Assembly: GCA_024690605.1 (NCBI GenBank)
Contig: JAILOV010000053.1
Span: 1-64,000, forward strand
Source: Lachnospiraceae bacterium
GTDB lineage: Bacteria > Bacillota > Clostridia > Lachnospirales > Lachnospiraceae
Direction of reading: 5' to 3'
Length of the DNA stretch: 64,000 nucleotides
Part shown: piece after piece, positions 62,285-64,000 of the stretch
Layout of the letters: each line of letters opens with the position of its first letter
Numbering within the stretch: position 1 is the stretch's first letter
The notes under the pieces: generated by a model
Seen by the model: the letters and a program-made list of their open reading frames with translations, nothing else
The model's database searches: none
What the model was told of the DNA's origin: nothing
Made by a program: the position numbers and the translations under genes

Positions 62285-62323
62285 AAGCCCCTAATCCTAT
62301 TGACAAGGTGGGATTAGGGGCTT
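62285..62323. terminator. Strong 13-bp hairpin (terminator-like; better T-tract on minus strand)
   Basis: AAGCCCCTAATCC (62285-62297)/GGATTAGGGGCTT (62311-62323). Confidence 0.65.
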
Positions 62324-62329
62324 TACAAT
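62300..62329 (+). promoter_or_regulatory. Promoter TTGACA-18-TACAAT nested in the hairpin
   Basis: Consensus -35 (62300-62305) in the hairpin loop region; TACAAT (62324-62329) directly after the right arm. Confidence 0.65.
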
Positions 62330-62381
62330 AGGCACCATGAAAAGCGGACGGCAGGTTCATCCGCGGAACAGGAGGAAGAAG

Positions 62382-62465
62382 ATGAGAAACATGATGTGTT
62401 GTTGTCGAATGTCAAAGGAATGGGCGTGTTGCATGGACGGACGCTGTCAGATGCGAATGTGCTGA
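62382..62465 (+). CDS. Candidate leader peptide MRNMMCCCRMSKEWACCMDGRCQMRMC (7 Cys, 7 Met of 27 aa)
   Basis: ATG preceded by GGAGGAAGAAG; stop TGA 62463-62465; not in ORF track owing to size; between promoter and terminator upstream of a binding-protein gene. Confidence 0.7.
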   Translation: MRNMMCCCRMSKEWACCMDGRCQMRMC

Positions 62466-62499
62466 CACAGGTCTGTCAGAGAAACTGAGCAAAGACGCG

Positions 62500-62534
62500 C
62501 CCGGGATTTCCTCATGCGGAACACCGGGTTTTTT
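62500..62534 (+). terminator. Intrinsic terminator between leader ORF and structural gene (attenuator)
   Basis: CCCGG (62500-62504)/CCGGG (62524-62528), inner TTCC (62508-62511)/GGAA (62518-62521), TTTTTT 62529-62534. Confidence 0.7.
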
Positions 62535-62576
62535 GTTGCCAATTTTGGATCATTCGATAAGAGGAGGAAGAAGATC

Positions 62577-64000
62577 ATGAAAAGAGCAAAGTTTTGGGCA
62601 TTACCTTTGATCGCCGCACTGGGACTGTCACTCACGGCCTGCGGCGCAGCCGATGCGGGGTCGAGCGCACAGGCAGCGGAGACGACGGAGAACAAGGAGA
62701 GCGGCGCGGTCTACCGCACGCTGGATGAGATCAAGGCCGACGGCACCGTGAACATCGGCGTGTTCTCCGACAAGAACCCCTTCGGCTATGTTGATGAAAA
62801 CGGCGCGTATCAGGGCTACGATGTGTACTTCGCCGAGCGGATCGGCCAGGATCTCGGCGTGAAGATCAACTACGTGTCCACCGAGGCGGCAAACCGCGTG
62901 GAATATCTGGAGACCGGCAAGGTCGACATCATCCTCGCAAACTTCACCGTCACCGAGGAGCGCGCGCAGAAGGTCGACTTCGCACTTCCCTACATGAATG
63001 TGGCGCTGGGCGTTGTCTCCCCCGATAGCAGGGTGATCAGCGATCTGTCCGAGATCAAGGCGGAGGACGAGGTGATCGTCATCTCCGGAACGACGGCGGA
63101 GACCTATCTTGCGGAGAACAATCCGGAGATCAAACTGCAGAAGTATGACACCTATGCGAACGCCAAGAATGCTATCGAGAACGGCAACGGGGTCGCGTGG
63201 GCCAATGACAACACCGAGGTCATCGCGTTCGCTCTGCAGAATCCGGGCTACACGGTGGGCATCCCGTCGCTGGGATCGCAGGACACCATCGCACCGGCGG
63301 TCTCCAAGGGCAACACGACGCTGTTGAACTGGATCAACGATGAGATCAAAGCGCTCGCTTCCGAAAACTTCTTCCATAAGGATTATGAAGCAACGTTGGT
63401 CGATACCTATGGTCTGGATTATGAGGAGAGCCTTGTGGTTGAGGGCGGCGTGCCCGCAACGGGTGCGGCATCCGCAGACGCGGCACCGGCAGCAGGCAGC
63501 TCCGATATCCCGCAGGGGAACGGTGCAAAGATCACGATCGCGGCATCTCCGGTCCCGCACGCCGAGATCCTCGCAGAGGCGGGCAAGGTGCTTTCGGAGA
63601 ACGGCTGGACCCTGGAGGTCACGGAGTTTGAGGATTATGTGCAGCCCAACCTCGTCGTGGAATCCGGTGATTTTGATGCCAACTATTTCCAGCACATTCC
63701 GTATCTTGACAACTTCAATGCCGAGCAGGGCACTCATCTCGTGAACGCGGGCGGCATCCACTATGAGCCCTTCGGGATCTATCCCGGCACGAAAAAGGAT
63801 CTTGCGGAGCTGACGGACGGTGATGAGATCGCGGTTCCCAATGACACGACCAACGAGGCGAGAGCACTTCTCCTGCTGGAGGCGAACGGTGTGATCAAGT
63901 TAAAGAGCGGCGCCGGTCTCACAGCGACGACCAAGGACATTGAGGAGAATCCGAAGAACGTGAAGATCGTTGAGCTCGAAGCAGCACAGGTGCCGCGTGT
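62577..64000 (+). CDS. Substrate-binding lipoprotein fusing an SBP_bac_3 (polar amino-acid) domain and an NlpA/MetQ-like domain; partial, runs off window
   Basis: Not in ORF track (no stop in window). MKRAKFWALPLIAALGLSLTACG lipobox; TVNIGVFSDKNPFGYVDENGAYQGYDVYFAERIGQDLGV (SBP3); ITIAASPVPHAEILAEAGKVLSENGWTLEVTEFEDYVQPNLVVESGDFDANYFQHIPYLDNFN...GGIHYEPFGIYPGTKKDLAEL (NlpA/MetQ). Confidence 0.88.
   Translation, partial: MKRAKFWALPLIAALGLSLTACGAADAGSSAQAAETTENKESGAVYRTLDEIKADGTVNIGVFSDKNPFGYVDENGAYQGYDVYFAERIGQDLGVKINYVSTEAANRVEYLETGKVDIILANFTVTEERAQKVDFALPYMNVALGVVSPDSRVISDLSEIKAEDEVIVISGTTAETYLAENNPEIKLQKYDTYANAKNAIENGNGVAWANDNTEVIAFALQNPGYTVGIPSLGSQDTIAPAVSKGNTTLLNWINDEIKALASENFFHKDYEATLVDTYGLDYEESLVVEGGVPATGAASADAAPAAGSSDIPQGNGAKITIAASPVPHAEILAEAGKVLSENGWTLEVTEFEDYVQPNLVVESGDFDANYFQHIPYLDNFNAEQGTHLVNAGGIHYEPFGIYPGTKKDLAELTDGDEIAVPNDTTNEARALLLLEANGVIKLKSGAGLTATTKDIEENPKNVKIVELEAAQVPR

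Follow-up and report, generated by a model that had tools for sequence, protein, structure and literature searches.

A candidate cysteine-responsive leader-peptide attenuator upstream of sulfur amino acid genes in Lachnospiraceae and other Clostridia

Leader-peptide attenuators are usually seen as one-operon devices, found mostly in Proteobacteria; the Firmicutes are better known for T-boxes and riboswitches. For cysteine, a few described systems come close to the element presented here. In Rhodobacterales, the uORFC-8-2 motif upstream of cysS combines an upstream open reading frame (uORF) rich in cysteine codons with a terminator, and ribosome-mediated attenuation by Cys-tRNA was proposed (PMC8632094). 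Cysteine leaders were also predicted for cys operons of Actinobacteria, with a Cys run close to the stop and without conserved terminator hairpins (PMC1262725), and the title of Canestrari 2020, as cited in PMC13236596, presents mycobacterial polycysteine open reading frames (ORFs) as cysteine-responsive attenuators. Leader peptides have been noted in Firmicutes for hisS/hisZ of Bacilli (PMC2965389), and in Clostridium perfringens cysKE, cysP1 and cysP2 are preceded by Cys-specific T-boxes (PMC2940859). Here we analyse a leader region near the end of a 64,000-nucleotide stretch of a Lachnospiraceae bacterium (GCA_024690605.1, contig JAILOV010000053.1, positions 1 to 64,000; 'the window'), where a short ORF rich in cysteine and methionine codons is followed by an intrinsic terminator and then by the gene of a fused amino acid receptor (Table 1).

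With a probability that we put at about 0.88, this region acts as a ribosome-mediated transcription attenuator, sensing charged Cys-tRNA and possibly Met-tRNA as well, upstream of a cyst(e)ine/methionine-type uptake operon that it controls. As far as the sequence tells, it would belong to the trp/his class: a Cys/Met-rich ORF preceded by a ribosome-binding site (RBS), a terminator before the first structural gene, a covarying antiterminator that excludes this terminator, and control codons placed so that one antiterminator strand (strand A, inside the ORF) would be left free by a stalled ribosome. When Cys-tRNA is plentiful, the ribosome would pass the Cys codons and cover strand A, leaving strand B free for the terminator, so that transcription would end before the operon. 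If Cys-tRNA runs short, the ribosome would instead stall at the Cys codons, its front just short of strand A, which could then pair with B once B is transcribed; the terminator would not form, and the operon would be transcribed. From the features described below we infer that the ribosome stalls, which way the switch responds and what its ligand is.

Table 1. Features of the leader region and of the regulated gene in the window (nt, nucleotides)
Feature	Position	Strand	Basis and remarks
Rrf2/CymR-like operator candidate, CCTA-N9-TGGG, overlapping the -35 box	62296-62312	+	Motif counts in 126 leaders
Sigma-70 type promoter, TTGACA-18-TACAAT	62300-62329	+	Near-consensus, 11/12 match
Shine-Dalgarno sequence of the leader ORF, AGGAGG	62370-62375	+	Sequence; 6-nt spacer to the start codon
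Leader ORF	62382-62465	+	27 codons, MRNMMCCCRMSKEWACCMDGRCQMRMC, 7 Cys + 7 Met (14/27)
Candidate control codons Cys-Cys-Cys (TGT TGT TGT), before the Arg-Met codons	62397-62405	+	Conservation of pre-Arg codons in 114 leaders
Antiterminator strand A, GGGCGTGTTGC, inside the leader ORF	62422-62432	+	Homologous to the S-R/Q-A codons
Intervening hairpin across the 3' end of the ORF and its stop codon, within the antiterminator	62436-62477	+	Window folding
Antiterminator strand B, GCAAAGACGCGCCC, overlapping the terminator 5' arm	62489-62502	+	Folding, consensus structure
Intrinsic terminator with T run	62499-62534	+	Stem 62499-62529, then T5-6; -14.8 to -15.4 kcal/mol
Regulated gene, fused SBP_bac_3 + MetQ/NlpA lipoprotein, 558 residues	62577-64000, coding sequence continuing past the window end	+	Pfam, NCBIfam

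A first, sequence-only reading of this DNA had pointed out the Cys/Met-rich ORF of 27 codons with its strong RBS and the terminator that follows it. Both are there, the terminator beginning at 62499, one base from the 62500 given at the time. The reading frame stays open upstream as far as an ATG at 62337, a start that has no RBS. Among the 517 ORFs of 20 to 60 codons in the window, the leader frame has the highest share of Cys and Met, and none of 167,660 random open frames of 26 codons with the local dinucleotide content reached either 13 Cys+Met or 7 Cys; its composition is therefore far beyond chance. An ordinary terminator belonging to an upstream gene, next to a fortuitous ORF, could be imagined given the inverted repeat that lies upstream (62285-62323), but the leader has its own promoter, of a type that orthologous leaders share, and the ORF, the spacing and the strand pairing described below are conserved over dozens of genera, so that we regard this explanation as practically negligible.

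The scan of named genomes for orthologues gave 80 loci, mostly from Lachnospiraceae metagenome-assembled genomes (MAGs) with a few isolates (among them XBB2008, YSD2013 and Butyrivibrio NC2002). A Cys-rich leader preceded by an RBS and followed by a terminator, usually 20 to 40 nt past the ORF stop, was present in 57 of the 80, a count that includes duplicates with the loci of the genus; examples are MRTGIRTWINYTEMCCCMCCRMLCSQASNKAGCLARLSCARI (L099) and MRSLYMNGCCMMCMCRMLFSRADVRLRRVWLPCHAHC (L143). Frame, Cys/Met bias and terminator are conserved together among the orthologues, which passes the computable refutation tests set by the sequence-only reading, and the ribosome-mediated attenuation advanced from the single sequence is strengthened by this co-conservation and by the covarying antiterminator. 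The window leader and three close relatives (G048, G057 and G062) form a divergent subtype, and a DNA similarity search reached the closest leaders only.

Nearly all leaders share the peptide core (C/M)n-C-R-M-x-x-S-(R/Q)-A; it is conserved across some 114 distinct sequences. The codon before the Arg is Cys in 95 of the 114 and Met in 5, and over the six codons preceding the Arg, Cys accounts for 275 of 668 (41%) and Met for 168 (25%). Since TGT (256 codons) and TGC (47) are both used, conservation concerns the amino acid, not the exact codon. In contrast, the Arg codon is CGA in 103 of the 114, which suggests an additional constraint on the RNA. From the Arg codon to the TCCC that opens strand A, 90 of 95 leaders have a spacing of exactly 9 nt, such that strand A starts 12 nt past the last Cys codon (15 nt in the window). 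Twelve nucleotides roughly match the leading edge of a ribosome, which, when its A site holds a Cys codon, would extend approximately to the border of strand A. Many leaders of O-acetylhomoserine (OAH) sulfhydrylase and MetQ genes (for example L196, L194, L225 and L226) end in CGATGTTGA, that is, Arg-Cys-stop, with a second conserved Cys codon directly before the stop.

Could the nascent peptide, rather than the supply of charged tRNA, be what is sensed? A Cys-rich chain might bind a metal, a thiol or heme and arrest its own ribosome; clusters of cysteines can bind metals, and the CRM core is highly conserved. However, the number and order of Cys and Met vary freely between leaders (CCC, CMCMC, MCCRCC), the R-M and S-R/Q-A residues come after the Cys codons, and the targets are sulfur amino acid genes. 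Moreover, the S-R/Q-A peptide sequence is accounted for by RNA pairing, being conserved because its codons copy a terminator arm. We therefore judge peptide sensing to be very unlikely.

A second alternative concerns methionine. In a dual attenuator, the Met codons would be true control codons and starvation for either amino acid would open the operon. Their enrichment before the Arg fits such a scheme, as do the MetQ-type half of the receptor and the one leader that precedes metK; besides, the eight codons before the Arg contain on average 4 Met and 1 Cys in the two MetN-type leaders, against 4 Cys and 1 Met in the CysK leaders. On the other hand, the position adjoining the Arg is overwhelmingly Cys in the counts given above, the MetN, CysK and metK leaders are very few, and Met codons may persist for other reasons, such as the RNA sequence or the use of methionine as a proxy for sulfur status. 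We consider dual control doubtful, while a role for the Met codons is plausible. Sensing of Cys-tRNA and/or Met-tRNA had been put forward from the sequence; cysteine emerges as the principal control codon, and dual sensing is not demonstrated by the enrichment of Met at the same positions.

The structural half of the argument lies in the S-R/Q-A codons. Their sequence, TCCCRGGCA, copies the 3' arm of the terminator and is complementary to its 5' arm, TGCCYGGGA, and the duplex between ORF and terminator arm is more stable than those of codon-shuffled ORFs (mean z -3.8, n = 59). The variable base of the R/Q codon follows the base facing it in the terminator 5' arm: 23 A-T pairs (CAG), 17 G-C (CGG), 1 G-T and 0 A-C, with a Fisher p of 1e-10 that overstates independence, because on the receptor-protein tree, with 8 changes at the ORF site and 7 at the terminator site, only two independent covarying pairs fall on well-supported branches. 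As the terminator 3' arm is mostly constant (CCCGGG, tolerating G-U), this covariation belongs to the A:B pairing. Without guidance, RNAalifold returns A:B as the consensus structure, and in 65 further leaders found with a covariance model and aligned to it, the A:B helix is 96.4% paired and the structure contains 12 pairs changed on both sides, where shuffles give 6.8 +/- 1.2.

Mutually exclusive structures had been foreseen by the sequence-only reading, and the antiterminator and terminator are such a pair. All the complementarities it listed are present: GGGCGT (62422) with GCGCCC (62497) extends to the pairing of GGGCGTGTTGC with GCAAAGACGCGCCC and is the conserved antiterminator, but TGTCAG (62445) with CTGACA (62462), proposed as a second competing structure, only forms the core of the hairpin that the antiterminator encloses. 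An equivalent of this hairpin (GGGTGT...GCACCC) is found in about 20 of 35 orthologues. In the window, the antiterminator region (62415-62505) folds better than shuffled sequences (z -2.9), while the leader taken as a whole does not (z -1.1). When strand A was masked in folding, the terminator exceeded a probability of 0.9 in 47 of 49 leaders; with a ribosome parked at the last Cys codon and the terminator 3' arm not yet made, the antiterminator exceeded 0.9 in 43 of 49. At equilibrium with the full terminator the picture is mixed, the antiterminator being favoured in 28 of 49. A sequestor pairing TGTCGAATG with CATTTGTCA was considered and not adopted, most leaders folding a hairpin within the 3' part of the ORF instead.

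Translation of the leader might alternatively act on translation downstream, as in mycobacteria, by changing access to the RBS before 62577 or by coupling to the next gene. This does not agree with the conserved intrinsic terminator and T run between leader and gene, located in 59 leaders by the terminator search, nor with a terminator 5' arm that has a conserved alternative partner in the ORF; we find translational control highly improbable.

The window is part of a 67.9-kb contig (C46), and the operon runs on beyond it. The receptor carries an SBP_bac_3 domain (residues 59-264) and an NlpA/MetQ domain (residues 319-556), and is followed off-window by a MetN-type ATPase, a MetI permease (above the NCBIfam cut-off), two HisM-type permeases and a GlnQ/TcyN-type ATPase. 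Polar amino acid and MetQ domains are thus joined in a single receptor, and the operon mixes MetN/MetI-type with HisM/GlnQ-type transporter parts. The closest solved structures of the N-terminal half are 2yjp (E = 4.5e-69) and 1xt8 (E = 1.4e-63), labelled only as amino acid binding proteins in the search output, which we take to be the N. gonorrhoeae and C. jejuni receptors for L-cysteine. The best match of the C-terminal half is 4ib2, of MetQ fold. The putative transporter, of cysteine/methionine type, fits the control codons of the leader.

The element is not confined to this operon. A covariance model (R1) detected it in at least 47 of 397 genomes of the family (43 of 334 genera), with up to four copies per genome, and, reaching other families, in at least 20 of 295 genomes of the order and 10 of 291 of the class; these figures are lower bounds, because scoring was limited to the best candidates of each genome, and most carriers are MAGs. 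A second model (R2), for which the 65 leaders obtained with R1 served as input, detected the element in one genome besides that of the window among 300 of the phylum, again before an OAH-sulfhydrylase-like gene. The window element scores 55.9 bits with R1 and a weak 28.8 bits with R2.

Classified by BLAST, the genes downstream of 126 leaders encode the fused receptor (59), OAH sulfhydrylase (28), MetQ alone (9), SBP_bac_3 or fused receptors (4), other transsulfuration-type enzymes dependent on pyridoxal phosphate (PLP; 5), cystine-symporter-like proteins (3), MetN (2) and cysteine synthase (2), with 14 unclassified. Hidden Markov models (HMMs) back OAH sulfhydrylase, CysK and metK as downstream genes; the symporter matches only general DctA/GltP-type models, below the cut-off, and HisM-type permeases (L201, L212, L213 and L223) and a glutamate-cysteine-ligase-like gene (L222) were assigned by visual inspection alone. 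The Cys/Met-rich leader before metK (L218) belongs to a relative of the same family; in the window genome, a S-adenosylmethionine (SAM) riboswitch occupies the place before a metK-like gene. One leader (L170) lies before the gene of a glycyl-radical enzyme whose nearest match is (2S)-3-sulfopropanediol dehydratase (by HMM, truncated and below the cut-off), which suggests cysteine control of organosulfonate use. The genome of the window also has three OAH-sulfhydrylase-like genes without such a leader. From this overwhelming majority of sulfur amino acid genes, the homologous leaders appear to constitute a sulfur amino acid regulon in Lachnospiraceae and other Clostridia, and the tie first drawn to the dual-domain receptor in particular falls, as leaders of the same family precede many other sulfur genes.

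Several observations count against attenuation by Cys-tRNA as set out above. About 20 orthologues have no leader (NC2002, L144, is one), and within the genus R1 finds the element in only 15 of 79 genomes, itself a lower bound. In L076, L083, L084 and L087 an additional Cys codon lies just 3 nt from strand A, and the independent, well-supported covarying changes are few. For the window, with the whole terminator transcribed and the ribosome stalled, equilibrium favours the terminator (antiterminator probability 0.11-0.34), and substantial antitermination is predicted by folding for the untranslated RNA; nor did folding of the orthologue leaders establish a conserved protector (1:2) hairpin over strand A. 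Given this equilibrium, and the mixed one of the 49 leaders, the switch must be kinetic, that is, co-transcriptional.

A further layer of control may lie in the promoter. The sequence CCTATTGACA occurs exactly upstream of 81 of 126 leaders (0.04 expected), and the inverted repeat CCTA-N9-TAGG covers the -35 box in 63 of 126 (0.36 expected; L113 and L226 are examples). It looks like an operator of Rrf2/CymR type, presumably bound by a protein of that family, which would imply control by a repressor in addition to the attenuator. In the window, a perfect 13-bp inverted repeat, AAGCCCCTAATCC / GGATTAGGGGCTT (62285-62323), flanks the -35 box of the leader. Elsewhere in the same genome (contig C37, 2748-3274, L240), a gene for an Rrf2-family regulator (PF02082) diverges from a PLP-dependent transsulfuration-type gene, which has CCTATTGACATAGTAG upstream and no Cys leader. 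Our broadest proposal is that a single homologous attenuator family makes up a genome-wide sulfur amino acid regulon in Clostridia, in the role that Cys T-boxes play elsewhere, with the Cys:Met ratio of the control codons tuning it for each gene and an Rrf2/CymR-type operator, joined to the -35 box of those promoters, adding a layer of control above it. We offer it tentatively, the odds being somewhat against the whole of it. Occurring before eight or more kinds of sulfur genes in dozens of genera of Clostridia, this leader family provides a ready-made prediction of control by cysteine in bacteria that abound in gut and rumen, and its leaders can help to assign substrates to uncharacterised transporters and enzymes.

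Known RNA regulators do not account for the locus. With the Rfam covariance models, no T-box matched there, the only candidate of the genome being elsewhere and below the cut-off, upstream of a 366-residue ORF and a pheS-like ORF (named by eye). A SAM riboswitch (S-box) was likewise rejected, as RF00162 gave no match at the locus, and the single one of the genome is that before the metK-like ORF. Eleven leader loci compared with Rfam matched nothing besides a tRNA, and the only Rfam match of the window is a bacterial small signal recognition particle RNA (RF00169; 45103-45201, minus strand). We found no description of the element in Rfam or, for Clostridia, in the open-access literature, a coverage outside which most subscription-journal papers fall.

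Among described systems, the uORFC-8-2 motif shares with the present element a uORF with tandem Cys codons, RNA stems and an intrinsic terminator. By its published description, however, it comprises 145 examples before cysS only, in one alphaproteobacterial order, with the Cys codons inside the first stem, whereas the element described here is found in Clostridia before many types of genes, has another leader core, and carries strand A downstream of the Cys codons. Mycobacterial polycysteine leaders, too, are short ORFs that contain Cys runs and precede cysteine genes, but those ORFs are leaderless, and here an internal Cys cluster is combined with an antiterminator and an intrinsic terminator. 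The trp/his-type attenuators have in common with it a leader peptide with control codons and mutually exclusive antiterminator and terminator; they differ in amino acid and targets, in serving one or two operons per leader rather than a whole regulon, and in the 1:2 sequestering hairpin, which was not established here. Finally, Cys T-boxes also produce cysteine-dependent premature termination at genes of cysteine synthesis and uptake in Clostridia, but they bind the tRNA directly and need no translation. The mechanism would thus be a classical one, and what appears to be new, judging from the leaders and their gene contexts, is a multi-operon Cys(/Met) leader-peptide regulon of Clostridia.
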